The notes under the pieces were generated by a model that ran no database searches, was not told the origin of the DNA, and was given only the letters and a program-made list of their open reading frames with translations. This document shows positions 14,601 to 33,018 of a stretch of DNA of 33,639 nt, one piece after another. How positions within the stretch are numbered: position 1 is the stretch's first letter; each line of letters starts with the position of its first letter. The DNA lies in the NCBI GenBank assembly GCA_029881725.1, contig JAOUMB010000031.1:1-33639 (forward strand), read 5' to 3'. This DNA is from Nitrospirota bacterium (lineage in GTDB: Bacteria; Nitrospirota; JACRHL01). The position numbers and the translations under genes are program-made.

Positions 14601-15767
14601 CTAACCCAGTTCGGGAAACGCCCGTGCCAGCGCCTCGGTCACCTCGGCGCGCCGGTGGATGAGGGAAAAACGCTCCCCCACCTGCACCGCCCCGTCCCGC
14701 AGGCGGGCCAGTTCCTCCGGGTGGCAGATCAGCCGCCGCAGGGCGTGGGTCAACACCGGCACGTCCCGCGCCGGCACCAGCACGCCGTCCGTATCGTGTT
14801 CCACCAGATCGGGAATCCCCCCCACCCGGGTGGCAATGACCGGGGTGCCGCTGGACAGGGCCTCCATCACGCACACCGGGGTGCCTTCGTTGTGGGATGG
14901 CAGCACCAGCAGGTGCGCGGCGCGCATGCGCGCCGCCACCTCCCCGCGCGGCAGGGGGCCGGACAGGGAAACGGCGGTATTGACACCGGCCTCCTCCACC
15001 CGCCCCGCCAGACTCTCCCGCAGGGGGCCGTCCCCGATGATCTCGAGGGTGAAATCCAGCCCCTCGGCCGCCAGCGCCAGGGCCGCCTCGACCAGTTCCG
15101 GCACCCCCTTGGCGGGCACCAGATCGCCCACGAAGATCACCCGCGGCGGGCCCTCCGGGGGTGCTTCGGCCGGAAAGAAAGTGGCCGTATCCACCCCGCA
15201 CGGGATCAGCGACAGGCGCTCCTCCGGCACCCCCCAGCGGGTGGCGAGCCGCTCCCGGATGGGCTCGCTCACGGCAAACACATGGCGCGCGCGGCGCAGC
15301 ACAAAGCGGGTCAGCACGCGGTACAGGGCCGACTTGTCCGCGTATACGTTGATGTCGGAGCCGTGGGCATAGACGGCCAGCGGACGCCCGGTGAGCCAGG
15401 AGGCGGCGGCGCCGATCACCCCGGCGGGCACCACCCAGTGGGCGAAGATCACCCGCTGGCGCCGCGCCTGCCCGATGGTGGCCAGCAGCCCCCGGAACAT
15501 GTAGCGCAGCATCAGCAGAATGGGGGTTCCGCCATACTCCTTGAGCAGCACCCCGCGGGAGCCGAATTCGAAACGGGTGACCGGAATGCCGTTCCGGGTT
15601 TCGGCCCGCGGATCGTCCGGGTAGATGAGGGGGGCCACCGCCGTCACCGGCCAGCGTTCCCGCAGGCCGTGGGCGATGTCCTCCACAAACGCGCCCCGGG
15701 TGCGGGCGGTGGGGCTGGGGTAGGAGGAGGAGAGCAGCAGCACCCCGCCGCGGGCGTTGGTGGCCAC
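14601..15767 (-). CDS. GT4-family (group 1) glycosyltransferase
   Basis: A 388-residue GT-B-fold transferase that would add a sugar from a nucleotide donor to a lipid-linked or polysaccharide acceptor on the cytoplasmic face. The N-terminal domain opens with LLLSSSYPSP and includes HWVVPAG and a VYAHGSDIN acceptor-side motif. The C-terminal domain has FVGDLVPAKG, EIIGDGPLRE and the EGTPVCVME E-x7-E motif (about Glu294 and Glu302), then SGTPVIATRVGGIPDLV. The start is uncertain: GTG at 15767 lies 11 nt after the GT2 stop; GTG at 15743 is the alternative; neither has a good ribosome site. Last gene of the minus-strand cell-surface block. Confidence 0.87.
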   Translation of the reverse strand: MATNARGGVLLLSSSYPSPTARTRGAFVEDIAHGLRERWPVTAVAPLIYPDDPRAETRNGIPVTRFEFGSRGVLLKEYGGTPILLMLRYMFRGLLATIGQARRQRVIFAHWVVPAGVIGAAASWLTGRPLAVYAHGSDINVYADKSALYRVLTRFVLRRARHVFAVSEPIRERLATRWGVPEERLSLIPCGVDTATFFPAEAPPEGPPRVIFVGDLVPAKGVPELVEAALALAAEGLDFTLEIIGDGPLRESLAGRVEEAGVNTAVSLSGPLPRGEVAARMRAAHLLVLPSHNEGTPVCVMEALSSGTPVIATRVGGIPDLVEHDTDGVLVPARDVPVLTHALRRLICHPEELARLRDGAVQVGERFSLIHRRAEVTEALARAFPELG

Positions 15768-15778
15768 GGCGGCGGCGC

Positions 15779-16750
15779 TCAGCCGACCCGGTCCTGCACC
15801 GGCTGCCGCTCGTTCTCGAGTTGGCCGCGCACCAGCATTTCGCCCAGCAGGCCGATGGAGAAGAACTGGATTCCGATCAGGATCAACACCCAGCCGCCCA
15901 CCATGATCGGCCGCAGGCGCATGGGGTAACCCATCATCCACTGGGCGGCGAAAAACAGGCTGACCCCGGTGCCGGCCATCAGGCACGCCAGCCCCACGGT
16001 GCCGAACAGGTGCAGGGGGCGGCGGCCGAACTTGACCAGAAACATGACGGTGACAAAGTCGAACAGCCCCTTCACGATGCGCGAGGCGCCGTAGTGGGAG
16101 GCGCCGTAACGGCGGGCATGGTGGCGGACCACCAGTTCACCCACCTGGAAGCCATTCCAGAACGCCAGCACCGGCAGGAAGCGGTGCATCTCACCGTATA
16201 CGCGCAGGTTATCGGTCACCTCGCGCCGGTAGGCCTTGAACCCGCAATTGAAGTCGTGCAGCCGGAGGCCGGAAAAATAGCCGGTCACGCCGTTGAATAT
16301 CCGGCTCATGAAGCGCTTTCCGAACGGATCCTTGCGCTCCTTTTTCCATCCGGAGACCACGTCGTACCCGTGTTCGGCCATGGCTTCCAGCATGCGCGGC
16401 ACCTCGTCCGGGTCGTCCTGCAGGTCCGCGTCCATGGTGACGATCACCTCTCCCATGGCGGCGCGGAAACCGGCCTCCAGGGCGGCGGATTTGCCCCGGT
16501 TCTTGCCGAAGCGGAGGGCCCGCACCCGCGGGTCGTGGCGGTTCAGTTCGCCGATCAGGTCAAAGGAACCGTCGGTGCTGCCGTCGTCCACGAACAGCAC
16601 CTCGAACTGACAGCCAACCCGCTCGGTGGCGGCGCAGATGCGGCGGTGCAGCTCCTTGAGGGATTCACGCTCGTTGAGCACCGGAATCACGTAGGAAAGG
16701 CGCGGCAGGGCGCCGCTTTCATACCTGCGATGGGGAACCGTTTCCATCAT
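15779..16750 (-). CDS. GT2 glycosyltransferase with two C-terminal membrane helices (DPM1/GtrB-like)
   Basis: A 323-residue polyprenyl-phosphate-sugar-synthase-type enzyme. It would load a sugar onto undecaprenyl phosphate for use on the periplasmic side. Motifs are YVIPVLNE (residues 20-27), FVDDGSTDGS (53-62), GKNRGKSAALEAGF (82-95) and the metal-binding MDADLQDDP (Asp107, Asp109). The NCGFKAYRR segment follows. Two membrane helices near residues 230-255 and 270-300 anchor it, as in GtrB. It starts ATG-ATG and overlaps the upstream GT2 gene by 4 nt. Such enzymes normally feed GT-C transferases; the two TMTC-like proteins upstream in the block are candidates (inference). Confidence 0.9.
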   Translation of the reverse strand: MMETVPHRRYESGALPRLSYVIPVLNERESLKELHRRICAATERVGCQFEVLFVDDGSTDGSFDLIGELNRHDPRVRALRFGKNRGKSAALEAGFRAAMGEVIVTMDADLQDDPDEVPRMLEAMAEHGYDVVSGWKKERKDPFGKRFMSRIFNGVTGYFSGLRLHDFNCGFKAYRREVTDNLRVYGEMHRFLPVLAFWNGFQVGELVVRHHARRYGASHYGASRIVKGLFDFVTVMFLVKFGRRPLHLFGTVGLACLMAGTGVSLFFAAQWMMGYPMRLRPIMVGGWVLILIGIQFFSIGLLGEMLVRGQLENERQPVQDRVG

Positions 16751-17754
16751 CGGGAGTCCTCCTCGCTGGCGCTATCCGTCCCCGGTTTCCGGTAGGCCAT
16801 GCGCCGGGTCAGGTAAAGGACGTTTTCCACCAGCTTGCGGTTGTTGGCAATCAGGTCCGCCACCACCCCCAGCACGCACACCTGAAAGCCCATGATGATC
16901 AGGATGGCCGCCAGAATCAGCGACTGGATGTGCCCCTCCCCCTCCCCGATGGCGTACAGGTAGATAAAGCGCACCCCGGGAATCATCCCCAGCAGCAACA
17001 GAAGGCCGCCGATGAACGTAAACATGCGCAACGGCTTGTACATGGTGAAGACGCGCAGCATGGTGGAGGCGGAACGCTTCAGGTAGCTGGGAATGGAGCG
17101 GAACAGTCGGCTCTTTCGCAGCATGGGGTTGGTGCGCACCGGCACGTGGGTCAACGCCATCGACTGGCGCCCCGCCTGGATGATGGTTTCCAGGGTGTAG
17201 GTGAACTCGGACACCACGTTGATGCGCAACGCCGCCTCGCGGCTGTAGGCGCGGAAACCGGAGGTGGTGTCCGGCACTTCGGTGCCGGACAGCTGCCGCA
17301 CCACCCAGCTGCCCCAGAACTGGAGCTGCTTCTTGGCAAAGGAAAAGTGGGCGATGGTCTGCGGCTCCCGGTCGCCGATCACCACGTCGGCGCGCCCGTC
17401 GACAATGGGCCGTACCAGTTTTTCGATGTCGGGCCCGTAATACTGGTTGTCGGCGTCGGTGTTGACGATGATATCGGCCCCGTGGGTAAGGGCGTATTCC
17501 ATTCCGGCGCAAAACGCCCGGGCCAGCCCCTTGTTGGAGGTGAAACGGACCACGTGATGCACCCCCAGTTCGCGGGCCACCTGGCTGGTGCGGTCGGTGG
17601 AACCGTCGTCAATCACTAGGTACTCGATGCAATCCACTCCGTCCAGTTTCCGGGGCAGATCGCCGATGGTGACCGGGAGGGTTTCCTCCTCGTTCAGGCA
17701 GGGAATCTGGATGATCAGTTTGATGGGGGGGGTGACCGTCACAACGCATTCCAC
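16747..17754 (-). CDS. GT2 glycosyltransferase with C-terminal membrane helices
   Basis: A 335-residue GT-A transferase related to the next gene but clearly distinct. Motifs are IIQIPCLNEEETL (residues 14-26), VIDDGSTDRT (47-56), SNKGLARAF (73-81), the DXD motif NTDADNQY (Asp100, Asp102), and PDTTSGFRAYSREA. Two hydrophobic helices at about 247-270 and 283-308 anchor the C-terminus. Proteins of this form are usually dolichol/undecaprenyl-phosphate mannose-type synthases. The start is GTG, with GGAAGG 8 nt upstream; that ribosome site lies in the loop and stem of a hairpin (17759-17775). It overlaps the following gene by 4 nt. Confidence 0.9.
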   Translation of the reverse strand: MECVVTVTPPIKLIIQIPCLNEEETLPVTIGDLPRKLDGVDCIEYLVIDDGSTDRTSQVARELGVHHVVRFTSNKGLARAFCAGMEYALTHGADIIVNTDADNQYYGPDIEKLVRPIVDGRADVVIGDREPQTIAHFSFAKKQLQFWGSWVVRQLSGTEVPDTTSGFRAYSREAALRINVVSEFTYTLETIIQAGRQSMALTHVPVRTNPMLRKSRLFRSIPSYLKRSASTMLRVFTMYKPLRMFTFIGGLLLLLGMIPGVRFIYLYAIGEGEGHIQSLILAAILIIMGFQVCVLGVVADLIANNRKLVENVLYLTRRMAYRKPGTDSASEEDSR

Positions 17755-17758
17755 AAAA

Positions 17759-17775
17759 CGGGCCTTCCGGGCCCG
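17759..17775 (-). promoter_or_regulatory. Hairpin covering the ribosome site of the glycosyltransferase operon
   Basis: CGGGCC/GGCCCG stem (6 bp, 17759-17764 with 17770-17775) and a 5-nt loop. Read on the minus strand it is followed by T4 and then the GTG start at 17754. The GGAAGG ribosome site falls in the loop and right arm, so the stem could block translation or act as a weak terminator after the lipoprotein gene. Confidence 0.5.
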
Positions 17776-17785
17776 GACAAACCAC

Positions 17786-17807
17786 CGTTCCGCCTTTTAT
17801 CGGAACG
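17786..17807. repeat. 7-bp perfect hairpin downstream of the large lipoprotein gene
   Basis: CGTTCCG (17786-17792) and CGGAACG (17801-17807) with an 8-nt loop. It lies 39 nt after the minus-strand stop at 17846. There is no U-tract immediately after it on the minus strand, so termination would be weak; read-through into the glycosyltransferases is likely. Confidence 0.5.
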
Positions 17808-17845
17808 AAAACCCGCACACAAAACCGGTATCTTACGCATTTCCG

Positions 17846-20800
17846 TCACGGGGTGCACGGCGCGGCCGGATTGAGCGGCTCGCGCAGGCGCACCATGGTG
17901 TCGGACAGGTTGGCGGGCAGGATGATGTCATACACCCCCGCAACCGCCAGTTCCTCGGTGGACATAACACACCCTCCGGTGGCGGAGAACGTCACCTCGA
18001 TGCCCGACTGGGACGCACCCACCGCATCGGTCACCTTTCCCTGCAGCAGCACGCCGTCCGGATCCGATCCCACCAGCACGCTCATCCGCGCGAAGGAGGC
18101 CTCTCCCGCACGCACCATGAAGCGCCGGTTGCCATTGCTGCCATCCACCGCCGAGGCCCACACGTTTCCTGGCGGCACGTTCAGCGCAATAAAACGGCCC
18201 GATAAATCGGTGGTGGACCGGACGGCCAGATTGCCACCGCTGTCCAGGTAAAACAGATCCGGAACAGAATTGCCATCCACGTCGGCCACCTGCACGCGAA
18301 TGCCGTCCTGGGGGGGTTGGGTGCCGCTGAACACCGTCAGGTCGTGGGTGGTCTGGTTGGTAATCACCAGGTCGGATCCACCGCCCTCGTCGAAGTTGTC
18401 CACCACCACATCGGAGGGTGTCCCTCCGGTGGACAGGGCGGGCCTCCGGCATACCGGCAGATTGCACTGCCAATAAATGAACCGGGTCTGGGTCACGGGG
18501 TCCAGGTCCTGGCCCAGATACACGGTAACGGTATTGGTTCCGGGACACATCACCAGCAGGTCGGTCCAGCGGTCCGAGTTGATATTGGCCACCTTCATGC
18601 GGCGGGCGTTGCACCCGGGATCCAGGTTGATGGGCGCGACGATCTCCATGGACCCGGTGGGCAGGACATCCCACACCTGCACCTGATTGGCACCCCGGCT
18701 CAACACGATGTACTCCAGATCCCGGTCCACCTTGACATCGCCGTTCCGGTCCAGGTCGAGGCGCAGGATGTCGGAGGGGTTGGTGCCCGCGGACAAAAAC
18801 AGGGGCTGTTCCCGCACCAGGCCCGCACCGGTGTTGGCGTAGGTTTCCACCCGCTGATCCAGTTCCATGGAAACGATCACATCGTCACGGGGATTCGGGG
18901 TGGTGAGCCGCCCGGTGGAGCTTATCAGCTTGTGCACATCCCGCACCACCATGGCCGAAGGGGAGGTTCCGTCCAGGGGAAACGGCGAATAGTCCGCCTC
19001 CACGTAGCGGCGGTCCTCACCGCGGATGAAAATCGACAGGGAGGGGGAACCGCCGGCGTTCAACACCACCACGTCGTCCCGGTCGCCGTCGGCGTCCATA
19101 TCGCCCAGTTCGATGGCGATGGGGGTGGATCCGGTCAGCAGGCGGCGGCTGCGGTCCTCGCGGAAGGAGCCGCGGATGGTGCCGAGCAGCACGGTCACAT
19201 CGCCGGAACTGGCCCCCTGATTGAGCACCAGAATATCACCCACCGCATCCCCGTTGACCTCGGTTCCCACCAGGTCCACCGGGGTCAGCCCGACCGGGTA
19301 GGTTCCCGCAGTGGCGAAGCGCCCGTCCGGGGTCCCGAAATAGACGGAAACGTCGTCCGAGTCCCCATTTGCAACCAGCAGATCGGGAAGGTCATCGCCG
19401 TTCATGATGGAAGACGCCACGGCGGTGGGGCCGCGCACCCCGCCGGAGATTACCCATTCGGTTCCCGGGCCGTTTTTCCAGGTGCTCACCTGCACTTCTC
19501 CGATCACCACCCCCAGATTCGGATCTTGCACCACCGGGTTGCCGGATGCGGCCAGTTGCTGCTCCAGCATTGCCAGGCGCTGCTGCGACAACCCGACCAG
19601 TTCAACCCCGCCCTTGTTCGTGCCGCCGGTGGTGACCGCCAGATTGTGGGTGGGCAGATAGTTGCCCAGGGGATTGGCCGACACGATGAAGTCACCGGCG
19701 ATCCTGAGCCGCGCCTGAAAGGTGCCGTCTCCCTTGGTGAGTTCCGTCAGGTACCCGCCCTGGGATGTCAGATCGCGGGACGGCTCGCCCCGGAAGGTGA
19801 GGGGGGTGCCCCCGACGGGCATGCCGTCCAGATCCCGGAGCACGCCGGACAGGGTGATCTGTTCCTCCGGCGCATCGCCGACCACCAGGGATCCCATGGC
19901 CGTGACCCCGCCCGGATACACCCGAACGGTGCGGCTTCCGGTATCGTTATGGGACACCACGTGCACCAAAACCAACCCCGGCGGCACGTTGAACACCACA
20001 AATTCCCCCTGAAGGGAGGTGGACTGCAACCGCTGCGGCAGCCCGACGGAATCCAGATAGCGGATATCCCCCACCGGGATCCCGCTGTCGTTGTACACGC
20101 GCAGTTCGATGTCCGGGGTGGTGCCGAGAGTTCTGGAATTCAAAATCCGCCCCACCAGAATGCCCAGGCCCGGGTCCACCTGCACCCCCGCCACGGCGGC
20201 CATCGCCTCGATTTCCGAGCGGGTGAACACCTGAAGGTTACGCACCACCTCCGCCCCGCCGCTGGGCAGGAATTCCATGCCGCTGGTTCCCACCAACTGG
20301 TAGGTGTCCACATAGTTGGAGCGTCCCGGAAGGCTGCCCACCCTGGCCACGTAATCCCCGGCAATCGGCAGGTTCGAGGCGGTCAGATTGTATTGGTCGA
20401 ACGGGTCGGGACGGTACTGGGAAAGAATTGCATATTCACCACCGGAAAACACCGTACGCTCGCGGATCGGGCCGTCGTAACGGCCCGGTCCGGCGCTGTA
20501 TCCGCCAATGTCCACCACCACGTCGGAAACCGGCGTGGACAGGTCCGAGAGGGTCATGCTGCCGCGCAGGGAAAACTCGGTGACCCCCACGGGGGATTCG
20601 CCCTGTTTCGCCGAGGCCACCCTTACTTCCGCAAGTGTGGCCCCATCGGGAAACACGCTGACCACGGTGGCCCCGCTCTTAACCGTGCGCGATCCGCTCC
20701 CGTCCGTATATGCGCTGCCACGGACAAAGATCGGGCCGGGCGGAAGGTCAAAGGCGACAAAATAGGAGGTGCCTTCCGCCTGGGCCTTGTTGATTTGCCG

Positions 20801-21859
20801 GTCATACAGAATCGCCCTGCCCATTCGGTACTGGCCCACCGGCTGGCCATCGAAGGTGGAGAAGCTGAGGCGCCCGTGGACTTGCGGATTGTCCCCGGTA
20901 AAGACCCGGCCCAGAATCATGCCGGTACCCGGCTGTGGCGTGATGCCGGTATCCTGAAGCCATCCGGCCACCCGGTCGTCCGACAGCATGAAGAAGTCCC
21001 GGGTCAGGTCCACCGCCCCGTTCAGGTCCGCCAGGTAGGTGTTGATGAGCTGATAGGTGGGCACGTGGCCCTCGGCTTCGCCCTTGATCATGAACTGGCT
21101 GCTGGACGGAAGCTTGAAGCGGAACCCCACCAGCGGGGTCACCTGCAAAAATCCCTGGTCATCGGAAAAACGGGTATCGCCCTGCAGGCCGACACCGCTG
21201 ACGGACACCGGGAACACGTTGCCCAGGGTGACCCAGTCCTGGATGGCGCCGGTCAGGCCGATCTCCGCGATAATCACCGGCACCGTGGTCACCGGCTTGA
21301 CGGAAATGCTGCCCGCAAAGGACGCTACACGCCCCACTCCCAGTCCCCCCTTGGAGGCGATGACGAAGGTCTCTCCGGGGGGAACGTTGAACACGGTAAA
21401 GGACCCCTTGGCGGCAGTGCCTTCCTCGGCTCCGAAATCCGGGACCCCACCCAGGCCGTTGTAAAAGACATCCGGCAGCACATTGCCGTCAAAATCGCGC
21501 AGCTCCAGCAGCACCGACGGAATCGGCGTGGCCCCGAATACGGTATACCCGCTCAGCACGCCCCCGGAAACATCGGCGGACACGTTGGCGGCGGACAGCA
21601 GGTTGGCCAGGTCCGCATGGGAGAAAATACGCAGGTCCGCCCCCCGGTCGCGGCCGACCTTGCTGCCGCGATCCCGGTCGCCGGTGGGAAAATCAAAGTT
21701 GAACGTTTCCACAAATGGCACGTCGCGAACACCGGAGGACTCCGGGCTGCCCGGAAACGGCGCGGCGCCGCACCCGCTCAACGCGAGCGCAACCGCCAGC
21801 GCAAGCAGGGCGCCAAGCCCCCGGTGCCGCAGGTCAGAACTGGTACGCAACCTCAACAT
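17846..21859 (-). CDS. giant modular lipoprotein: four PPG modules, the last split by a seven-bladed FG-GAP propeller
   Basis: A 1337-residue lipoprotein. The signal ends in ALSGC with lipidated Cys30. Four related modules follow. Each begins with a short helix and a P-x-x-G-x-(I/V)-x-G-x-(V/I) strand (clear at ~307, ~562 and ~779; weaker at ~98) and has an (N/D)-(V/L)-PPG turn (158-162, 371-375, 624-628, 1227-1231) with Ig/carboxypeptidase-regulatory-like beta flanks. Residues ~811-1180 are seven FG-GAP/VCBS-type repeats with DxDxDG-like calcium loops, placed inside module 4. The DxDGNxxPDxFYxxxGG segment occurs in both modules 1 and 4. The start at ATG 21859 lies within the end of the DUF1302 gene (26-nt overlap), with only a weak ribosome site. 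Likely anchored in the outer membrane and exposed, as a binding or scaffold protein (inference). Confidence 0.88.
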   Translation of the reverse strand: MLRLRTSSDLRHRGLGALLALAVALALSGCGAAPFPGSPESSGVRDVPFVETFNFDFPTGDRDRGSKVGRDRGADLRIFSHADLANLLSAANVSADVSGGVLSGYTVFGATPIPSVLLELRDFDGNVLPDVFYNGLGGVPDFGAEEGTAAKGSFTVFNVPPGETFVIASKGGLGVGRVASFAGSISVKPVTTVPVIIAEIGLTGAIQDWVTLGNVFPVSVSGVGLQGDTRFSDDQGFLQVTPLVGFRFKLPSSSQFMIKGEAEGHVPTYQLINTYLADLNGAVDLTRDFFMLSDDRVAGWLQDTGITPQPGTGMILGRVFTGDNPQVHGRLSFSTFDGQPVGQYRMGRAILYDRQINKAQAEGTSYFVAFDLPPGPIFVRGSAYTDGSGSRTVKSGATVVSVFPDGATLAEVRVASAKQGESPVGVTEFSLRGSMTLSDLSTPVSDVVVDIGGYSAGPGRYDGPIRERTVFSGGEYAILSQYRPDPFDQYNLTASNLPIAGDYVARVGSLPGRSNYVDTYQLVGTSGMEFLPSGGAEVVRNLQVFTRSEIEAMAAVAGVQVDPGLGILVGRILNSRTLGTTPDIELRVYNDSGIPVGDIRYLDSVGLPQRLQSTSLQGEFVVFNVPPGLVLVHVVSHNDTGSRTVRVYPGGVTAMGSLVVGDAPEEQITLSGVLRDLDGMPVGGTPLTFRGEPSRDLTSQGGYLTELTKGDGTFQARLRIAGDFIVSANPLGNYLPTHNLAVTTGGTNKGGVELVGLSQQRLAMLEQQLAASGNPVVQDPNLGVVIGEVQVSTWKNGPGTEWVISGGVRGPTAVASSIMNGDDLPDLLVANGDSDDVSVYFGTPDGRFATAGTYPVGLTPVDLVGTEVNGDAVGDILVLNQGASSGDVTVLLGTIRGSFREDRSRRLLTGSTPIAIELGDMDADGDRDDVVVLNAGGSPSLSIFIRGEDRRYVEADYSPFPLDGTSPSAMVVRDVHKLISSTGRLTTPNPRDDVIVSMELDQRVETYANTGAGLVREQPLFLSAGTNPSDILRLDLDRNGDVKVDRDLEYIVLSRGANQVQVWDVLPTGSMEIVAPINLDPGCNARRMKVANINSDRWTDLLVMCPGTNTVTVYLGQDLDPVTQTRFIYWQCNLPVCRRPALSTGGTPSDVVVDNFDEGGGSDLVITNQTTHDLTVFSGTQPPQDGIRVQVADVDGNSVPDLFYLDSGGNLAVRSTTDLSGRFIALNVPPGNVWASAVDGSNGNRRFMVRAGEASFARMSVLVGSDPDGVLLQGKVTDAVGASQSGIEVTFSATGGCVMSTEELAVAGVYDIILPANLSDTMVRLREPLNPAAPCTP

Positions 21860-23636: not shown

Positions 23637-23767
23637 TTAGCTACTTTACCGACTCCGGAGGTCCGACACGTACGTACATGATACTCTCCGGATAGAGAAG
23701 CAAAAACGATTCCTTTTTGCCCATCCGATGACGGTTCATCCGCCCTGGATCCGGGCACGGACGCCCG
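23637..23767 (-). promoter_or_regulatory. AT-rich spacer with hairpin and a weak promoter candidate
   Basis: The 131-nt gap before the DUF1302 gene is AT-richer than its flanks. GCAAAAA (23700-23706) pairs with TTTTTGC (23714-23720). On the minus strand a TATCAT box (about 23679-23684) could be a -10, but the -35 at 17 nt is poor. It may separate the TPR genes from the barrel/lipoprotein pair transcriptionally. Confidence 0.35.
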
Positions 23768-25594
23768 TCACCCGTTTCCACACCGGGCTTGTCCCTTGCG
23801 GATCAGCGCGGTAATGGCCCCGGCCAGTTGCGGGGTAACCGCCTCCCGGGGGATGGCCGCAAGCGCGGCCTTGGCCGCGTCGCAGTGGCCCAGGGCCAGT
23901 TCCGCACGGGCCAGATTGAGTCCCGCCGCAGGAGGTGCATCCACGCTGGCCACCGCCCGCGCAAAGGCGTCCCGCGCCTGTTCGGGCCGATGGCTCAGGG
24001 CATAGAGAACCCCCAGATTGTTCCACGGGTCGTAGGCCTTCGGCGCCAGTTCCGCGCCGCGGCGAAACGCGGCTTCGGCCTCCGCCGCGTCGTTCAGCGA
24101 CTGAAGCGCAATGCCCAGCCCCATCCAGGCGGCCAGATTGTCCGGCGCTCGCCGGGTGGATTCCAAATACAGGTCGCGGGACGCCGCCACATCGCCGGCG
24201 GCGCGGGCGGTGGCGGCGGCGGTATTGCGCGCGCTCACATCATCGGGAACCTGTTCCAGATAGCGCCGGTACATGTCCAGCGCCTCCTCGTTCCGCCCCT
24301 GCCCCCGGTAGGCCATCGCCAGGTTGTTATTCACCCGTGAACTGCCCGGAACCCGCTCCAGTTGCGCTTCCAGCACCGTCACGGCATTGGCGAAATCCCG
24401 GTTGCGGTCCCAGGTTCCCACAGCCAGCACCAGCAGCACCGCCACCCCGGCGGCCGGCGCGGCGCGGCGCAGGCCCGGATGCAGGGACGGCAGGCGGGCC
24501 AGGCCGATGCCGGCCAGCATGCAGAAGCCCACCGACGGCAGGTACAGGTAGTGCTCGGCAAACAACTCGTAATGGGGAATGATGTGCATCACCGGCACAT
24601 ACGTCATCCACAGCCAGTGCACCCCGAACATGGCCGCCCCGCCCCCCCGGCGCACCATCCAGGATCCGGCCCAGGCGGCGGCGCCAAGCACCGCCAGCGC
24701 CACCGCCAGACGCGGGTCCAGGGGCGAGGTCACCGGTGCAAACACCCCCTCGTAATCGAGCAGCAGTCCGGTGGGGAGGAACAGCAGCCGCAAGCCATGG
24801 GCCATGACCACGGCCACGGTCATGAAATTGGCCGGCCAGGAGCCGCCGTGCGGGGGATGCCCTCCCCCGGTGTTCTGGAACAGGAGCATGTACAGGATGA
24901 ACAGGGCCGCGGCCAGGGCCCCGGAACCGTACAGCCGCCAATGGGTGGTCAGCACCCGGCGGGCGGCGGCCACGGTACCCAGTTGTTCCCCGCGGGCGCA
25001 GCGGGCCAGATCCACCAGGAACCAGGCCCCGGCCACGGTGGCGGCCATCTCCTTGGTCATCACCCCGCACACCGCCCACAGCACGGCCCACCCGAACCAG
25101 CGGGTGCTCCGGGTATCACGGAACCGCAGGTAGGCGGCCACCGAGGCCAGATAAAACAGGGTGGACAGCACGTCCCGCCGCCCGGAAATGTAGGTGACCG
25201 AATCCACGTGCACCGGATGCACCGCAAACAGTGCCGCGCCCCACAGGGCGGCGGCACGGTTGCCGGTGATCCCGCGCGCGATCACGAACACCAGCCACGT
25301 GGTCAGCGCGTGGTAGATCAGGTTGAACAGGTGGTAGACGAACGGGTTCAGGCCACCGAGCTGGTAGTCCAGCATCTGCGACAGGTCGCGCCCGATGCGG
25401 TAACGGAAGGTGGCCTCCCCCCAGCCGAACAGTTGCGGCAGATGGGCAAACCCGTGGGCGCGGGTGTTGGTCAGCACGGTCGCCGTGTCGTCCCATACGA
25501 AGCCGCCCGACAGGCCGTTCACAAACGGCAGCACTGCGGCCAGCAGCACCAGCGGCACACCTAAACGCACGTCGATGGACCGCTCACCACTCAC
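23768..25594 (-). CDS. TMTC-like multi-pass membrane protein with C-terminal TPRs (putative GT-C O-glycosyltransferase)
   Basis: A 608-residue inner-membrane protein. About ten hydrophobic helices span residues 10-430. The first periplasmic loop carries GGFVWDD (Asp35-Asp36), the diacidic position expected for GT-C enzymes, and the next region has AVHPVHVDSVTYISGRRD (His126, His129, Asp131, Arg139), a pattern seen in TMTC proteins. Residues ~440-600 are TPR units (VNNNLAMAYRGQG, AWMGLGIALQSL, PWNNLGVLYAL). Eukaryotic TMTC1-4 are O-mannosyltransferases using dolichol-P-mannose; here an undecaprenyl-P-sugar from the GT2 enzymes would be the logical donor (inference). GTG at 25594 overlaps the upstream paralog stop (GTGA). 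Confidence 0.85.
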   Translation of the reverse strand: MSGERSIDVRLGVPLVLLAAVLPFVNGLSGGFVWDDTATVLTNTRAHGFAHLPQLFGWGEATFRYRIGRDLSQMLDYQLGGLNPFVYHLFNLIYHALTTWLVFVIARGITGNRAAALWGAALFAVHPVHVDSVTYISGRRDVLSTLFYLASVAAYLRFRDTRSTRWFGWAVLWAVCGVMTKEMAATVAGAWFLVDLARCARGEQLGTVAAARRVLTTHWRLYGSGALAAALFILYMLLFQNTGGGHPPHGGSWPANFMTVAVVMAHGLRLLFLPTGLLLDYEGVFAPVTSPLDPRLAVALAVLGAAAWAGSWMVRRGGGAAMFGVHWLWMTYVPVMHIIPHYELFAEHYLYLPSVGFCMLAGIGLARLPSLHPGLRRAAPAAGVAVLLVLAVGTWDRNRDFANAVTVLEAQLERVPGSSRVNNNLAMAYRGQGRNEEALDMYRRYLEQVPDDVSARNTAAATARAAGDVAASRDLYLESTRRAPDNLAAWMGLGIALQSLNDAAEAEAAFRRGAELAPKAYDPWNNLGVLYALSHRPEQARDAFARAVASVDAPPAAGLNLARAELALGHCDAAKAALAAIPREAVTPQLAGAITALIRKGQARCGNG

Positions 25595-27474
25595 GGTGTC
25601 CCTCCGTTTCCGGATTCCATGCCCGCCACCGCCGCCTCCCACCCGGGCAGACGCGGGTCCCCCGGCAGCCGCTCCCGGAGCCGGGCCAGGGCCGCACGCG
25701 CCTGTTCCACATCGCCGGACGCCCCGGCCACGTGCAGGGCCAGCATGTCGGAAACAGCCGCCTGCGGGCGGTGCTCCCGCAGCACCCGGATGCCGTGGCG
25801 GGCCGCGTCCAGACGCCCGGCGCGAATGGCCTGGCGCACCAGTTCGGTCACCGTGCGTTCCGGATCACCGGTATGAAAGTATTTGCGGGTACGTTCGTTC
25901 TCGATTTCCGCGTCCAGCAATTGCAGCAGGGTATCGGTGGCCTGCCCCGGACGGTTCAGGCGCGTATACACCTCGGCCAGCTGCACCAGATAACGGGGCT
26001 GGCCGGGGGCATCCGCAATGGTGCGGGACAGCAGCCGCTCCGCTTCCTCGAAGCGCTCCTGAATCACCCACACCCGGGCCAGGTTGTAGCGGGCATCCAG
26101 TTCCGTGCGGGTGGTGGCCAGCCGGTAAAAGATTCGCTCCCCCTCCTCCACGCGGCCCGCCATCACGTAGAACGCGGCCAGATTGGTCCACGCGTCGTAG
26201 GAGTCCGGGTCGTGCTGGACGGCATCTTCCCACAGGGGGATATTGCCGGCCCACACCCGCTGGCGCGCGCCGGTCACCACCAGGAACAGGACGGCCACCA
26301 CCCCGGCCGCTGCGGCCAGTTGCCGCCTGCGGGGGCGGGCCACCTCCCACAGGCGCGCAAACAGCACCGCCCCGGCGATGCAGATCCCGGCGGAGGCGGT
26401 ATAGCCCCGGTTCTCCAGCAGGATGGTGGTCAGGTGCACGAAGGTGGAGGGGGCAATCAGCAGCAGATACCAGGCGAACCCCACCGGCACCAGTGGCATG
26501 GTTCGGCGCACCCGCCAGGCGGCGATTGCCAGCAGACCAATCACCAGCAGGCTGAGCACGGTCTGCGGAGAGGTGAGTCCCACCGTGGTATCGATCGGAT
26601 GGGCCAGGGTCAGGCCGGTGGGGATCACCATCAGGCGCAGGTTTTCCGCCAGGCACCAGAATGCGGTGGCCAGACGCCACTCCTCGCCGGTGACCCGGGC
26701 CAGATAGTGGAACGCCCAGGTTACGTTGGGCATCACCGACAGGGCCACCACCAGGCCCACCGCATAGGGCGCATAGGGCGCCCACAGGCGCGGGGAATCC
26801 CAACGCAGGTTCAGGGCCGGGCGCAGCACCAGCAGGTCCAGTACCAGCAGCGCGGCGGGAACGGTGAGGGCGGTTTCCTTGGAGATCAGCGCGGCGCCCA
26901 GCGCCAGCAGGTGGACCGCGTACCAGGCCACCGCCCGCCCGCCGCGGGCGGCGCGCATGCGCACATACAGGGCCAGGGCCAGCATGGAAAACATGCCGCA
27001 CATGACGGCCGAACGGGCGGTCATGTAGTGCACCGCCTCCACGTTAAACGGCAGGATGGCAAACAGGGCCGCGGCGCCAAACGCCACTTCCGGATCCAAC
27101 CGGCCGGTCAGCCTGCCCAGTCCGGACAGGGCGAAGAACAGCGCCAGCACGGTGACGGCATGCAGCGTCAGCTGGGTGACCTTGAACGGCACCGTGCTGG
27201 CGCCCATGGCGTGGTTGATGGCGTAGCTTAAGGTCACCAACGGCCGATAGTGGCTGGTGGCAGTCACCGAATAGGTGGATACGTCGGTGAAAAACCGGGG
27301 CCACTCCGAAAGCGACTGGAGCGCCGGATTGAGCTGGATATAGGGCGCGTCGTCGTACACGAACTCCCCGGACAGCTCCCACATGTGAGCCAATACGGCG
27401 AGCGCCACCAGCAGCAATGGCAGCAGCCAGGGCCGCCGGCCATGGATCTGGCGGATATCCGGCGGTGTGCTCAT
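25591..27474 (-). CDS. second TMTC-like membrane protein with C-terminal TPRs, divergent motif
   Basis: A 627-residue paralog of the next gene: an N-terminal helix at ~16-30, GEFVYDD (Asp41-Asp42) in the first loop, about ten membrane helices to residue ~415, and TPRs from ~440 (AWTNLAAFYVMAG, ARYNLARVWVIQE, YLVQLAEVYTRL). The HPxH pattern of its neighbour is replaced by LPFN (141-144), while Glu146 and Arg154 remain. It may therefore be a specialised or inactive partner. Start is ambiguous: ATG at 27474 or GTG at 27489, neither with a clear ribosome site. It ends 4 nt inside the following gene. Together they look like a tandem duplication that has diverged. Confidence 0.84.
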   Translation of the reverse strand: MSTPPDIRQIHGRRPWLLPLLLVALAVLAHMWELSGEFVYDDAPYIQLNPALQSLSEWPRFFTDVSTYSVTATSHYRPLVTLSYAINHAMGASTVPFKVTQLTLHAVTVLALFFALSGLGRLTGRLDPEVAFGAAALFAILPFNVEAVHYMTARSAVMCGMFSMLALALYVRMRAARGGRAVAWYAVHLLALGAALISKETALTVPAALLVLDLLVLRPALNLRWDSPRLWAPYAPYAVGLVVALSVMPNVTWAFHYLARVTGEEWRLATAFWCLAENLRLMVIPTGLTLAHPIDTTVGLTSPQTVLSLLVIGLLAIAAWRVRRTMPLVPVGFAWYLLLIAPSTFVHLTTILLENRGYTASAGICIAGAVLFARLWEVARPRRRQLAAAAGVVAVLFLVVTGARQRVWAGNIPLWEDAVQHDPDSYDAWTNLAAFYVMAGRVEEGERIFYRLATTRTELDARYNLARVWVIQERFEEAERLLSRTIADAPGQPRYLVQLAEVYTRLNRPGQATDTLLQLLDAEIENERTRKYFHTGDPERTVTELVRQAIRAGRLDAARHGIRVLREHRPQAAVSDMLALHVAGASGDVEQARAALARLRERLPGDPRLPGWEAAVAGMESGNGGTP

Positions 27475-27507
27475 GGAACCGGGACACACAGGGGGACACC
27501 GTGTAAC

Positions 27508-28974
27508 TCAGCGGCGGACATACAAATCGACTCCGTCATGGCAGTGGGCAAAATGCGGCAGGTCCACGCCGCCCCGATGCATAAACCGGTTTTTCAGGAA
27601 TCCGAACAGGCGCGGGGAGGCGCAGGCGCGGGGACGCCCGGCGGGGTCCGGGCGATCACCGATGAGCACCAGCTTCTGCCCTGCGGACAAGCGCTCCAGC
27701 AGGGCCAGCACGGCGCTTTCCACGACGGAATCGTTCAGCACCCACGACACCATGACCACCTCCTCCGGACGGGGCCTGGCGTCGTGGAAATCCACCCGCT
27801 CCATGGGCAGAAAGCGGTGCCCGGGAAACAGGTCGCTGGCGCGAACATCCAGTGAGTGGTGGCGGCGCAACAGGGATTCCCAATATCCGTTGCCCGCGCC
27901 ATAGGAACCCACCGGGGCGCCGTCCACAAATGCGGCGATGGCATCCACCGCCTCGCGGGTGGGAATGGACCAGGCGAACACCCGGGTGAACACGCTGCGC
28001 AGCACCAGATCCGGGCAGGTTTCCGGGTTGAACCGGTCCAGTTGAGCCTGCCACCAGGCAGCGGTTTGCACCGTGTCCGGATCCAGCGCCCGCAGGGTGG
28101 CCACGGCGGCGTCAACCGGCTCCGGCTGGGGATGCGGGCAGGTGCGCGCCAGGGCCAGGGCCAGGTCCAGGGCTTGGGCGCCATTGGGGTACAGGTGCTC
28201 CTCCCCCAGACTCGCCAGCAGGGCTTTGCGCTCCGGGCTGCCGATCCGTGCCAGAACCAGTCCGTAATTGATCACCACCGAGAGGGTGTGCGGATCGGAT
28301 TCCAGCAGGATCCGATAGTGCCCCGCCGCATCGTCGAAGCGGTCGAGGGCAAACAGCAGGTCGGCAAAACCGGTGCGTACGAAAGCGTTCTCCGGCGCGT
28401 CCGCGACCGCCGCCTCGAACAGGCGCACAGACTCCTGAAAAGCCGCGTCCCGCCCCGGCCCGTCCAGATTGGGATCGAATTTGGCCTGATAGTGCAACGC
28501 CTTGGCCAGGCCGGTCCGGGTGGTGGGGCCGTTGGCGCCCAATGCGATGGCCTGGCGGAACGCGGCCACCGATTCCGCGTGGCGCCCGTTTTCCAGCAAC
28601 ACCGCGCCCAGTTTTTCGTGGGCCGGGGCAAATGCGGGCAACCGCTGGACCGCCTCGCGGGCAGCGGCTTCGGCTTCGGCCCAGCGCTCGCCGCGACCGT
28701 AGACCAGACACAGGTAATACACCGCTTCCCCTCGCTCCGGGGCGGTGGACGGCACCGGCTTCAGGTACGCCTCGGCTTCGGCGTCCTGCTGCCGCAGGAG
28801 GCACAGCTTGCCCAGACTCACCCGTGCCCCGGTATGCCCGGGGAACTGCTCCAAAAGGGTCCGGTAGCGTTGGGCGGCTTCGTTCAGTCGGCCGGCGCCC
28901 GCCGCGGCCGCCGCCTGCTGCTCCAGCCGGACGCGCCGGGGGTCTGGTTTCAACGTGTGTTTCATTGCCGTCAT
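27508..28974 (-). CDS. TPR protein with a C-terminal methyltransferase-like Rossmann domain
   Basis: A 488-residue protein with no signal peptide, so probably cytoplasmic. Residues ~15-250 are TPR-like helical repeats. Residues ~330-488 look like a class I SAM-dependent methyltransferase: VGSYGAGNGYWESLL (355-369) as the glycine-rich SAM loop, then DVRASDLFPG for the ribose-binding acidic strand end, EEVVMVSWVLNDS as motif IV, and KLVLIGDR as a later strand. The similarity is by pattern only, and the substrate is unknown. The ATG at 28974 lies 1 nt after the stop of the upstream barrel gene; ATG at 28965 is an alternative. A modification role on a glycan or on the partner proteins is plausible (inference). 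Confidence 0.82.
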   Translation of the reverse strand: MTAMKHTLKPDPRRVRLEQQAAAAAGAGRLNEAAQRYRTLLEQFPGHTGARVSLGKLCLLRQQDAEAEAYLKPVPSTAPERGEAVYYLCLVYGRGERWAEAEAAAREAVQRLPAFAPAHEKLGAVLLENGRHAESVAAFRQAIALGANGPTTRTGLAKALHYQAKFDPNLDGPGRDAAFQESVRLFEAAVADAPENAFVRTGFADLLFALDRFDDAAGHYRILLESDPHTLSVVINYGLVLARIGSPERKALLASLGEEHLYPNGAQALDLALALARTCPHPQPEPVDAAVATLRALDPDTVQTAAWWQAQLDRFNPETCPDLVLRSVFTRVFAWSIPTREAVDAIAAFVDGAPVGSYGAGNGYWESLLRRHHSLDVRASDLFPGHRFLPMERVDFHDARPRPEEVVMVSWVLNDSVVESAVLALLERLSAGQKLVLIGDRPDPAGRPRACASPRLFGFLKNRFMHRGGVDLPHFAHCHDGVDLYVRR

Positions 28975-28975
28975 T

Positions 28976-31900
28976 CTAGAAAGCGTAATTCATCGAAACC
29001 ACCACCTTCTGCTGTTTGTTGATATTGTCCTGCTGGATGTTGCCCGTAAGCTCCGCCTCCAGGTCGGATGGAATATCAATCGTCACACGGTTCTCCACCT
29101 GAACCAGTTCCACCACCCAGCGTGCCTTGTCGGTGGCCTGAAAGGTAAACCGCAGATTCACCGACAGGGCGCCCTGAACCTGTTCCGTTTCCACGTAGTT
29201 GGTTCCCCCCTCCGGGGTCGGAAAGGGTTGAAAAGTGCCCCTCACAAAGCGGCTGGCGCTCCAGGAGCCGGTCAGTGCTGCGGTCACCCGCGGATAGGGC
29301 CGGAACGAAAAGCTGCTGGAGGCATTGATCGCATCGATGACAATGGGCACCGGGGTGCGGTCGGGGTCGCCGGGACGCACGTTGGTCTTCCGATCTTCCC
29401 GGGATTTGCTGCGCCCCAGGTTCATGTTGAACACCCGCCCTTTGGACAGGGTGCGTTGATAGCCGACGGTGCGGGTGTCGGAGGTTTTTTCCACGTCCAG
29501 GATGGCGCTCACTGCCGTGCGGTGATCTATCCCCCCGGTCCATCCGACGGTAAACCGGTTGCTCTTGCCCAGCGTAAAATCATGCCCCAGGCGCATATCG
29601 AGATACTGTTGCAGATAGTTGTTGCGCGGGTTCAGGTAGGAAACGAATTCGGTGCGGGAATAGGACAGGCCCGTGGTCTTTGGGAACCCGATCCGCCCCG
29701 ACAGGGCGAGGCTTCCCAGATAGCTGACGCTGGTGGTGCCACGCTGGTTCCGCACCATGGTGACGTTGCTCGCCGGCGTTATGTTCAGGCGCGCAAGATT
29801 CACCGGCGCGCTGGCGCCCAATGTGCTGGTGTTTACATAGGTCTGAAAGGTGTAGTGCAACCGGTGGTTGGTGGAAAAGGAAAGCGGAAGGGACAGCCAG
29901 GAGGTGCGGAACGGGGTATAGGTGAGCGAAAGCGTGATATCACTAAATACCCCCGGCCGGGGGACGGTGGAATTGTTGGCGTTGGTGTTGAAGTTCAGCA
30001 CCGTCTGACTGAGGCGCACGTCCCATTTCTTGGCGGCGGCCAGCTTGGCCCGGGCATAGCCGGCCAGTTTGGCGTCCGATGGGCCGGCTATGGCGATAGC
30101 GCGCTGGAACCATTCCGCAGCGGTGGCATACTTGGGCTCCACACCCGTTGCCAACCCGTCCCCCCCTTCATCGATAGCCACCTTTTCCGCGGCCAGACCG
30201 CGCTCGATCAGCACCGCCACGGTCTCATCGTGTCCGGCAAGATACCAGTCGTACACCGCAGCGGCTTCGCTGTACCGCTCCGCACGGGAAAGCAGGCGCC
30301 CCTTGGCCAGCACCAGATCCACGTCATCCGGGCTGGCATCCAGCAGACCGGAAATCACCTCCACGGCCTCGTCGATGCGCTTCTGGGCCTCATACACCTT
30401 GGCCAGAAGGAGGGCCGAGCGCTGGTGCGTGGCACTGACGGCCAGCGCTTTTTTCAGCGCTTCCTCCGCCAGATCGTACTGCTCCCGTTTGTTGTATATT
30501 TGCCCCTGGTTGGACAAATAGGGAAGGTACTTCGGTTCCCGCCGGATTCCCTGATCCAGGTAATATAGTGCCTCGTCCTCCCGGCCCAATGCCATGAGCA
30601 ATTCCGACAGGACCTCGGTCAGCTTCCGGTGGGCGGGATCCAACTGATAGCCGCGCAAATAGGCGGTTATCGCCGCGTCCTTGTTCCCCGCCTTCAACAG
30701 GGAACGGCCGATCACAAGATAGGAAATCGCCTTTTCCTTTCCGTCCGCGGAGCCCCGCACCTCCGCCAGACGGCGGCGGGCCTCCTCCACCTCCGGCTCG
30801 TCGGTGCCGAATTCGAGCACCTTTTCAAACGCACCCACCGCCTCCTGGGCCACTCCGGCCATCAGGAAAAACAACCCGAGACGAAAATGGGACTGCACGT
30901 GATCCGGCTTGTATTTCACCGCTTCACGCAGTTCCTTGTAGGAATTCTGGGCCTGTTCCAGCTCCCAGTAGAAAATGGCCGCGTTGTAGTGGTAATAGGG
31001 GTTGGTCGGATCCAGTTGGATCGCCTTCTGGATGCGCTCGGATGCCGCCTGGAAGTTACCTTCTCCGGCCCGGTCCAGCGCCTCGAGGAAGGCGTCCCGC
31101 GACTCGCGCATGCCGGCGAATTTTTCAATGGTGTCCCGCAGCTCGCCGACCATGATGTCGGCCACCCTGCGGCGCGGATCGTCCCGCGGGGCCCAGCGCA
31201 ACACGTTCTGATAGCTTTCATAGGCCTGTTCAAACTGGCCGCTGCCGGTGTAAATGATCGCCAGACCGTAATGGCTCAAATAGTGTTGCGGATCCACCGC
31301 GATCGCCGCACGCAATTGCTCTCCGGCCTTGTCGTTATCGCCCTCCTGACTGTATACGGTGGCCAGGTTGTAGCGCGCCAGCACGTTGTTCGGAACCAGG
31401 GACAGAATTTCCTCCAGCAGTACCCTCGCGGTGGGCAGGTCGCCAGCACCCATCGCCTTCACCGCCAGGGAGGTGTTTTCACGCACCTTGCGGGCGGTTT
31501 CCACATCGCCGCCGAACAGTTCGATGCGGCGGCCCGCCTGCTGCGCTTCGCTGCTGTTGCCGCCGTAGCGGACCACGTCGCGAAACGCGGCCAGCGCTTC
31601 CGCCTCCCGTCCCGCGCTTTCGTGCAACAGGCCCAGCTGATGAATTGCCTTGAAATATTTCGGGTCCGCCTGCACGGCCCGCTTGAAGGCCGCCTCGGCA
31701 CCCGACGTGTCCAACTCCTGCAACCGGCTCAACCCAAGCAGATAGGACGCGTCCACGTTCCTGGGATCGAGTTGGACCAGTTTCCCGAACCATTCGGATG
31801 CCGTCTTGTAATCCCGGTCCTGGAAAAAGCTCAAGCGGCCGAGCGAAAACAGGGTGGGGGCATGCCTGGGCCACACCTTGATGATGTGCAGGTAAACGTC

Positions 31901-32602
31901 CCGCGCCTTTTCATTCAGGTTCGCCCGTTCATAGGCGGCACCCAGTTGGGTTCCCGCCTCGGCATCGTTCGGGCGCATGCGGAACACCTCCTCCAGATGC
32001 GGAAGAGCGTCCGCCTGCCTGCCCAACTGGATCAGGATCTGCGCCAGGTTGGTTCGGGCCGCGGCGTTTCCAGGGGCCAGACGCACGATTTCATCCAGCA
32101 CCTGGGTAGCCGCATCCATTTGCCGCGCCTGCATGGCCTGCTGCACCCGGGAGAAAAGTTGATCGATGCGGCGGGCGTCGTCCGCGGTGGCCCCGCGTTC
32201 CGCAAAAATCGCACCGATGCCCTGTGCCACGCCATCCGCGGGGTTTTCGTCCACCAGCGCCTGATAGACCGCATAGGCTGCATCCAGCTTGCCCTGGGCG
32301 GCCAGGGCGCCCCCCAGGACCAGGCGCGCCTCCCGATCCCCCGGATTGGCGGAAAGGTGCGCCTTCAACAGCTGCTCCGCCTCCGGCATCCGCCCCTTGC
32401 GCATCAGGGCATCCGCATCCTGAATTGGACCGGCCCATACCGGGGTGCTCACACAGATGGCCGAAACCACGGCAAGGAGCAAGGCTGCAAGGGATCGTAG
32501 GATCAACAGGGGGTCTCGGGGAAAAAATGACCGGGCCTTGGCAACCAAGGCAACAAAAACTGAAAATTTACCTGAACGTGACGAATCCTCCAAAGGATAC
32601 AT
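28976..32602 (-). CDS. large TPR protein with C-terminal outer-membrane beta-barrel
   Basis: A 1208-residue envelope protein. The signal peptide has a basic N-terminus, a LRSLAALLLAVVSAICV core and a VWA|GP cleavage near residue 57. Residues ~60-840 are a long TPR superhelix (repeats with YNLATVY, YHYNAAIFYWE, YLLGLSRL and DP/NP ends). From ~858 to the end, alternating aromatic/polar strands finish with NYAF, a typical barrel C-terminus. The plan (periplasmic TPRs plus a barrel) recalls exopolysaccharide exporters such as BcsC, PgaA and PelB, but I see no close motif match. Start at ATG 32602 was chosen because GGAGG is 5 nt upstream; ATG 32605 is too close to that site. First gene of the cell-surface block. 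Confidence 0.88.
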   Translation of the reverse strand: MYPLEDSSRSGKFSVFVALVAKARSFFPRDPLLILRSLAALLLAVVSAICVSTPVWAGPIQDADALMRKGRMPEAEQLLKAHLSANPGDREARLVLGGALAAQGKLDAAYAVYQALVDENPADGVAQGIGAIFAERGATADDARRIDQLFSRVQQAMQARQMDAATQVLDEIVRLAPGNAAARTNLAQILIQLGRQADALPHLEEVFRMRPNDAEAGTQLGAAYERANLNEKARDVYLHIIKVWPRHAPTLFSLGRLSFFQDRDYKTASEWFGKLVQLDPRNVDASYLLGLSRLQELDTSGAEAAFKRAVQADPKYFKAIHQLGLLHESAGREAEALAAFRDVVRYGGNSSEAQQAGRRIELFGGDVETARKVRENTSLAVKAMGAGDLPTARVLLEEILSLVPNNVLARYNLATVYSQEGDNDKAGEQLRAAIAVDPQHYLSHYGLAIIYTGSGQFEQAYESYQNVLRWAPRDDPRRRVADIMVGELRDTIEKFAGMRESRDAFLEALDRAGEGNFQAASERIQKAIQLDPTNPYYHYNAAIFYWELEQAQNSYKELREAVKYKPDHVQSHFRLGLFFLMAGVAQEAVGAFEKVLEFGTDEPEVEEARRRLAEVRGSADGKEKAISYLVIGRSLLKAGNKDAAITAYLRGYQLDPAHRKLTEVLSELLMALGREDEALYYLDQGIRREPKYLPYLSNQGQIYNKREQYDLAEEALKKALAVSATHQRSALLLAKVYEAQKRIDEAVEVISGLLDASPDDVDLVLAKGRLLSRAERYSEAAAVYDWYLAGHDETVAVLIERGLAAEKVAIDEGGDGLATGVEPKYATAAEWFQRAIAIAGPSDAKLAGYARAKLAAAKKWDVRLSQTVLNFNTNANNSTVPRPGVFSDITLSLTYTPFRTSWLSLPLSFSTNHRLHYTFQTYVNTSTLGASAPVNLARLNITPASNVTMVRNQRGTTSVSYLGSLALSGRIGFPKTTGLSYSRTEFVSYLNPRNNYLQQYLDMRLGHDFTLGKSNRFTVGWTGGIDHRTAVSAILDVEKTSDTRTVGYQRTLSKGRVFNMNLGRSKSREDRKTNVRPGDPDRTPVPIVIDAINASSSFSFRPYPRVTAALTGSWSASRFVRGTFQPFPTPEGGTNYVETEQVQGALSVNLRFTFQATDKARWVVELVQVENRVTIDIPSDLEAELTGNIQQDNINKQQKVVVSMNYAF

Positions 32603-32743
32603 CATCCCCTCCAAGTTTCATGCCAATCATGGGGCGGCAAGGGATGAGGATGAGAATCGGTTCCCTCCTCTCCAGTCCGATGATCGCCGCAGTGCATTTT
32701 CATGGTCTTTGCCATTCCCGCCCCATCATTCCCACCTCCCCCT

Positions 32744-32851: not shown

Positions 32852-32923
32852 CGCGTCAGGCCTGTCGCACGGGTCGCATCCAACTTCTTTTTTTTCTCCC
32901 ACGTCCTTCCCGACCCCCCAATC

Positions 32924-33018
32924 GTGCTACGCGCACGGCGATATGGCTGGCGAGTCAAACCGTACTCCACCCCGGGACGGCACCAGATCGTCCGGAATTA
33001 TCGCCGTGCGCGTAGCAC
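32924..33018. repeat. Perfect 20-bp inverted repeat around a 55-nt loop
   Basis: 32924-32943 and 32999-33018 are exact reverse complements, starting GTGCTACGCGCACGG. The right arm also takes part in a tighter hairpin, 33002-33010 with 33019-33027 (9 bp, 8-nt loop). The motif ATCGTGCTAC at its left end (32921-32930) recurs at 33215-33224, and GTGCTACGC at 33548-33556. Confidence 0.85.

Follow-up and report, generated by a model that had tools for sequence, protein, structure and literature searches.

The minus strand of the window (the whole stretch analysed, 33,639 nt, which is the entire contig G000:C70 of a Nitrospirota MAG with a genome of 2.96 Mb in 126 contigs) carries a block of nine genes. 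ORF calling together with Pfam and NCBIfam scans found all nine in the order listed by the first-pass annotation (Table 1); the ORF start positions, including that of the GT4 gene, are guesses. As the window is the whole contig, the block is cut on its upstream side.

Table 1 Features of the minus-strand block and its upstream end, with the evidence for each assignment
Feature	Position	Strand	Basis
TPR-barrel protein, core	28976..32605	-	Pfam TPRs, AlphaFold, barrel profile
TPR protein with methyltransferase-like C-terminus, variable	27508..28974	-	TPR matches, GxGxG-like motif by eye
GTC1, TMTC-like GT-C with C-terminal TPRs, optional arm	25591..27474/27489	-	PMT_2, TPR
GTC2, TMTC-like GT-C with C-terminal TPRs, optional arm	23768..25594	-	PMT/PMT_2, TPR
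DUF1302 outer-membrane barrel, core	21834..23636	-	PF06980, E 3e-10
LIPO, giant lipoprotein, core	17846..21859	-	lipobox, CarboxypepD_reg-like domains, FG-GAP repeats
Two terminator-like stem-loops in the gap between LIPO and the GT trio	17759..17808	-	consensus matches only
GT2, AglJ-like polyprenyl-phosphate-sugar synthase candidate	16747..17754	-	PF00535, TIGR04182
GT2, ArnC/PgfS-like polyprenyl-phosphate-sugar synthase candidate	15779..16750	-	PF00535, NF007986
GT4 glycosyltransferase	14601..15767	-	Glycos_transf_1, E 2e-32
Dispersed repeat upstream of the TPR-barrel gene, where the contig is cut	32910..33110		genome copies

From the TPR-barrel gene to the GT4 gene, the junctions measure 1, 18-33, -4, 131, -26, 91, -4, and 11 nt. 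Most had been described in the first-pass annotation as overlapping or 1-11 nt long, which is correct for five of the eight but not for those of 18-33, 131, and 91 nt. A single operon is not assured, because 131 nt precede the DUF1302 gene and the 91-nt gap after LIPO contains the two stem-loops. Terminator-like stems are, however, only slightly in excess in the region (22 vs 15.8 expected from shuffled sequence).

To the left of the block, argDFGH, lysA, a DUF599 gene, and a histidine phosphatase gene are encoded on the opposite strand. The left end of the contig carries a GT41-type protein (62-2140, plus strand; TPRs and Glyco_transf_41, E 7e-80), a candidate cytoplasmic protein glycosyltransferase, followed by an ORF (2137-3393, plus strand) with a partial match over residues 22-118 to the amylase domain of glycogen debranching enzyme (E 2e-18). 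PHROGs gave no informative match.

TPR-barrel protein: This protein is predicted to consist of a periplasmic TPR superhelix and a C-terminal beta-barrel. In the AlphaFold model of residues 500-1212 (mean pLDDT 78, pTM 0.46), a TPR superhelix is followed by about 14-16 strands; this and the other structures are single-chain predictions built from 13-17 sequences. Foldseek returned mainly TPR proteins, and BcsC (9b8h) was the sole listed match across TPRs and barrel. Of four members whose barrel part was compared with Pfam, three gave no match and the fourth a single match at chance level. BcsC and PgaA likewise combine an N-terminal TPR superhelix with a C-terminal barrel, but the barrel in the window has no family match, no synthase accompanies it, and its neighbours are different. 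Both assignments were rejected as the profile matches are TPR-driven (TIGR03939, 71.5 vs 366.65 bits; NF008520, 52.9 vs 858). The protein is also similar to Slam of type XI secretion, in which TPRs and a barrel of ~14 strands are encoded near a surface-type lipoprotein; here, however, the TPR arm is far longer and a second barrel is always present. Slam was rejected because the barrel alone gave no DUF560 match (PF04575) up to E 1 and no TbpBBD was found; TPR_Slam matches reflect the TPRs.

TPR protein with methyltransferase-like C-terminus: The 175 C-terminal residues have no Pfam match and no PDB sequence match, and the one basis for calling them methyltransferase-like is a GxGxG-like motif seen by eye. 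The homologue in a related genome (G001) sits elsewhere, between the phosphatase and GT4 genes.

DUF1302 barrel: The family assignment is clear (PF06980, 40.0 bits vs a cut-off of 23.2). The AlphaFold model has ~18 strands; its likeness to porins, Occ channels, and AlgE comes with low TM-scores and indicates the barrel class only. A marginal PDB sequence match to CdiI (E 0.002, ~70 residues) was taken as chance.

LIPO: A profile of this lipoprotein found 14 full-length relatives in 11 of the 246 Nitrospirota genomes, in six families. The lipobox in the window reads ...LALSGC, and a lipobox-like Cys is present in 14/14 sequences. The segment after this Cys is common to all of them, roughly C....FP....SG.R(D/N)VP(F/Y)..T(Y/F).F.F.TG, and is most divergent in G156 and G174. 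The PDB sequence search gave nothing useful. Outside Nitrospirota, the one named match, a Planctomycetales candidate (L050), was rejected as a homologue since its match is only partial, with 23% identity; in 199 genomes of its phylum, the profile of the TPR-barrel's barrel gave one weak partial match. Close relatives, found by a named scan, are MAGs labelled Nitrospirota/Nitrospirae bacterium and Nitrospira sp. That scan relied on two peptide patterns characteristic of the window's family and missed more distant Nitrospirota families too; hence, it does not establish absence outside Nitrospirota.

The core in other Nitrospirota

Locus stretches of 25-36 kb were examined in a sample of 246 Nitrospirota genomes, which is part of the phylum. 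LIPO is directly downstream of the DUF1302 gene in 14/14 loci, these being the best-scoring DUF1302 copies in the sample. Located with the barrel profile, the TPR-barrel gene is directly upstream of DUF1302, or fused to it, in each of the ten loci that do not belong to the window's family. As the neighbourhood is conserved in other genera and families, chance is excluded, and it is not credible from these gene orders that TPR-barrel, DUF1302, and LIPO are placed independently. The first-pass annotation had proposed an envelope system to which two barrels and a surface lipoprotein belong, a proposal that would suffer if the genes were scattered in other genomes; for these three genes the neighbourhood is retained, and this part of the proposal is upheld. 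For the whole set, we likewise found no named system.

Three other genera of the window's family share the neighbourhood. In G003 (L031) and G001 (L029/L030), the arg-lysA-DUF599-phosphatase genes face GT4-GT2-GT2-LIPO-DUF1302-GT-C, with most genes at ~50-86% identity, and in G002 (L032), the order GT-C-GT-C-DUF1302-LIPO reaches the contig end. The TPR-barrel gene lies on short contigs in G001 (L094, overlapping a GT-C gene) and G002 (L095, followed by two GT-C genes) and was not found in the G003 assembly. All assemblies of this family break in or near the TPR-barrel/GT-C part.

The full order in G156 is LolA-like, DUF1302, RND, OBB (a third, small barrel), secreted A, secreted B, TPR-barrel, DUF1302, LIPO, GT-C, GT2, and further GT-Cs. 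G118 has a similar order without the first DUF1302. In the sister family f8, LolA-like, DUF1302, RND, OBB, a secreted protein, TPR-barrel, and GT-Cs follow each other, and LIPO is missing. Families A and B often precede the TPR-barrel, in several families, and OBB is either a separate gene in LolA-like/RND cassettes or lies just upstream of secreted A. Because secreted A, secreted B, OBB, and the TPR-barrel's barrel have no or only sub-threshold Pfam matches, they are candidate new families. Judged by gene order and profiles, the core comprises TPR-barrel, DUF1302, and LIPO together with OBB and secreted A and B, which lie outside the window. That it represents an outer-membrane multi-barrel/lipoprotein module, apparently undescribed, is well supported by these comparisons.

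A further, paralogous locus type occurs in G182:C7, G158:C106, and G174:C8. It contains Gly-rich and other small secreted proteins, DUF1302, OBB, and TPR-barrel (L108:2323-17617, L109:4807-19000, L110:1632-16220), as well as two large proteins whose N-termini resemble lipoprotein signals.

In a tree of 26 DUF1302 proteins, those linked to LIPO form one group (support 85/93) that stands apart from the DUF1302 of LolA-like/RND cassettes, with one label change against a shuffled mean of 9.0. This suggests that the partner changed once, probably from RND pump to lipoprotein, in a tree that is midpoint-rooted for drawing only.

Two genomes, G158 and G138 (G138b), encode the three barrel types in single open frames of 1578 and 1582 residues (L080:1618-6351 and L090:1754-6499, both minus strand). 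Sequence profiles place TPRs first, then the TPR-barrel's barrel (~480-788), OBB (~797-1095), and DUF1302 (~1108-1582); the second barrel-type domain matches the OBB family at E ~1e-82 or better. The two fusions pair at 100/100 in the DUF1302 tree. Since they were found in different genera, one fusion event is most likely and not an assembly artefact. G174, of the same genus as G158, keeps the genes separate, and the window's own TPR-barrel and DUF1302 are separate proteins. Fused genes often encode interacting proteins; hence, the fusion is the strongest hint that the barrels may form a complex. Such natural three-domain fusions are also a ready handle for structure work. Multi-barrel outer-membrane proteins, as far as they are described in the paper citing Solan et al. 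(2021) (PMC11494523), have more than one barrel domain per chain, e.g., GfcD, and the G158 and G138 proteins would, from their predicted domains, resemble them in this respect. By sequence profiles, the fusions differ in joining three different barrel-type domains to a TPR arm.

The glycosyltransferase genes

Both GT2 proteins look like polyprenyl-phosphate-sugar synthases and are candidates for this function. The AglJ-like protein scores 112 bits with TIGR04182 and the ArnC/PgfS-like protein 179 bits with NF007986, both below the cut-off, and the two end in two and three C-terminal TM segments, respectively. The GT4 gene is conserved beside the GT2 pair in G001 and G003. The GT2-GT2-GT4 trio beside LIPO was seen only in the window's family.

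GTC1 carries the motifs FVYDD, SHYRP, and KETxxT, and the arginine of ERxxY is displaced (ENRGY). In GTC2, the motifs are FVWDD, RxD, and KE, and the same arginine is replaced by His (EHYLY). Like the O-mannosyltransferases TMTC1-4, both proteins combine a GT-C membrane domain with C-terminal TPRs and keep the DD and KE motifs. Strict TMTC membership was rejected because ERxxY is altered and no DUF1736 match was found with Pfam at E 0.01. Prokaryotic TMTC-like proteins have been noted (PMC7801869). The GT-C arm offers a bacterial setting for probing the function of TMTC-like proteins.

GT-C genes adjoin TPR-barrel or LIPO in four families (f1, f8, f22, and f28, including G118 and G156) and in f1 occupy the place between TPR-barrel and DUF1302. 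The window genome has three GT-C matches, two of which are inside the block. GT-C paralogues elsewhere in these genomes form large families. Among the GT-C arrays of L033 (1308-4268, minus strand), G118, and G156, we also noticed large membrane proteins that by eye look like spermidine-synthase/MFS fusions.

Eight of the ten core loci outside the window's family (G130 twice, G158, G174, G182 twice, and G138 twice) have no GT-C within the 25-36 kb examined. From this distribution, the GT-C genes appear as an optional companion of the core. As glycosyltransferase genes are missing beside most cores, the block is a composite, and the idea of one nine-part system put forward in the first-pass annotation had to be given up. 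Its pathway fared better in part: polyprenyl-sugar GT2s working with GT-Cs are plausible, but the glycosyltransferases are accessory. Since most cores are without GT-C and the trio is limited to the window's family, its term "glycan/glycoprotein" applies to an accessory arm only. On the same grounds, GT-Cs acting on exported beta-rich proteins would make a plausible, though accessory, arm. Its acceptors may be LIPO, the secreted proteins, or neither.

Possible function of the locus

As the best explanation of the whole, with somewhat below even confidence, we propose that the nine genes make up the distal half of an envelope supercluster of Nitrospirota, which would be an export/display system with an attached, optional glycosylation arm based on Und-P-sugar and GT-Cs. 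The TPR-barrel, the DUF1302 barrel, and OBB would form an outer-membrane set that works with LIPO and the Sec-secreted proteins A and B. Secreted A and B and LIPO would reach the periplasm, where the TPR arm may capture them, and the barrels would then pass them to, or display them on, the outside. LIPO would stay tethered via the conserved stretch that follows its lipidated Cys. In certain lineages, that of the window among them, the GT2s would load polyprenyl phosphate with sugar, which the TMTC-like GT-Cs would then attach to these beta-rich proteins while they are still in the periplasm and not yet exported.

Export/display is favoured because LIPO follows DUF1302 in 14/14 loci and the TPR-barrel is upstream or fused in 10/10, because a three-domain fusion exists in two genera and the LIPO-linked DUF1302 proteins group together at 85/93, and because the segment after the LIPO Cys is conserved and A/B adjoin the TPR-barrel in several families. 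The glycosylation arm is plausible because GT-Cs adjoin the core in four families, DD and KE are kept, and GT2s are in the block. The sequences show directly which genes make up the set, that it is conserved, that three barrel-type domains are fused, and that lipidation signals and the main GT-C motifs are present; that the proteins form a complex, what they transport and in which direction, and that glycosylation takes place is what we infer from this. Several findings count against the proposal as a whole: most core loci are without GT-Cs; OBB, A, and B are outside the window; the TPR-barrel has no signature of Slam or another protein-translocon barrel; and the best-known DUF1302 relatives in the literature serve RND-linked handling of small molecules and not protein export. 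A, B, and LIPO could also be partners of a transporter rather than cargo.

The main rival, which we consider unlikely but less so than the other alternatives, is a conduit for hydrophobic small molecules or lipids, in which cargo of the LolA-like/MMPL-RND cassette would cross the outer membrane through the barrels and LIPO would act at the surface as gate or receptor, not as cargo. It owes this rank to the studied DUF1302/DUF1329(LolA-like)/RND(MMPL) sets, such as AmeA-AmeD of Castellaniella defragrans and PP_0765/PP_0766 with PP_2018/PP_2019 of Pseudomonas putida, which share the DUF1302 family with the window and are linked to monoterpene and Tween20 metabolism (PMC6394551, PMC10866462). Similar cassettes, with LolA-like and RND genes recognised by Pfam, are found close to the core in relatives and, in the window genome, on contig C99, and LolA-like, DUF1302, RND, and OBB genes adjoin the TPR-barrel part in G156, G118, and family f8. 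The porin-like model of DUF1302 would also suit a conduit. In contrast to these cassettes, the DUF1302 gene of the window has neither a LolA-like/DUF1329 nor an RND neighbour, both of which were looked for in the window, and its group is tied to LIPO and TPR-barrel and separate in the tree. Moreover, the cores G130b, G182a, G182b, and G138a are without an RND gene in the stretch examined, and a conduit leaves the secreted proteins and GT-Cs unexplained.

A little less probable still is that the glycosyltransferase genes are no more than neighbours of the core and belong to a different pathway, such as glycosylation of lipids or of proteins in general, which would be compatible with either export or a conduit. 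The position of the trio, behind the 91-nt gap with its terminator-like stems and in the window's family only, is consistent with this, as are the large GT-C paralogous families elsewhere in these genomes. However, GT-Cs adjoin TPR-barrel or LIPO in f1, f8, f22, and f28; those of f1 are inserted between TPR-barrel and DUF1302, even overlapping the TPR-barrel gene in G001, and two-thirds of the GT-C matches of the window genome fall in the block.

A bolder form of the export/display proposal, in which the three barrels act as one complex or polypeptide that exports and displays secreted proteins around LIPO while a TMTC-like pathway glycosylates the cargo, is improbable as it stands. If the three barrels did work as one complex, few outer-membrane assemblies would be comparable, and it would belong to a phylum whose envelope machinery is little studied.

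Polysaccharide export, with the TPR-barrel as a BcsC/PgaA-type exporter and the GT2s and GT4 building the polymer, is very improbable: the TPR-plus-barrel architecture, the BcsC match spanning both parts, the AlgE likeness of DUF1302, and the presence of GT2 and GT4 speak for it, but in the window no processive synthase (only short ArnC/AglJ-type GT2s and GT4), no Wzx/Wzy, ABC, PCP, or OPX gene, and no genes of a known capsule/EPS locus were recognised, the PgaA and BcsC matches are far below cut-off, and glycosyltransferases are absent beside most cores.

In the window genome, contig C91 has the order A-MoaA-B at its right end, with A recognised by its profile at E 1e-42 and B at E 5e-15, and a LolA-like/DUF1302/RND/OBB cassette is on contig C99. 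B is expected just before the TPR-barrel gene of the window, and a join to C91 is suggested by synteny and the shared dispersed repeat (Table 1). Good copies of the repeat number about a dozen genome-wide. Several lie near contig ends, including one behind secreted A and B close to the right end of C91, and the repeat is probably an assembly breaker. Contig C91 (L091:1-16994) further encodes a giant PKD-like protein, which is 3,800 residues long or longer, and a lipoprotein with Kelch-like repeats, followed by secreted A, the MoaA-like radical SAM gene, secreted B, and the contig end. At three loci (L043:2390-15031, L037:5183-19405, and L093:395-13236), the LolA-like/DUF1302/RND/OBB cassette is regularly flanked by molybdopterin genes (MoaC-like, MoaD/E-like), parts of an ABC transporter, a small His-rich protein, and a methyltransferase, all identified by eye.
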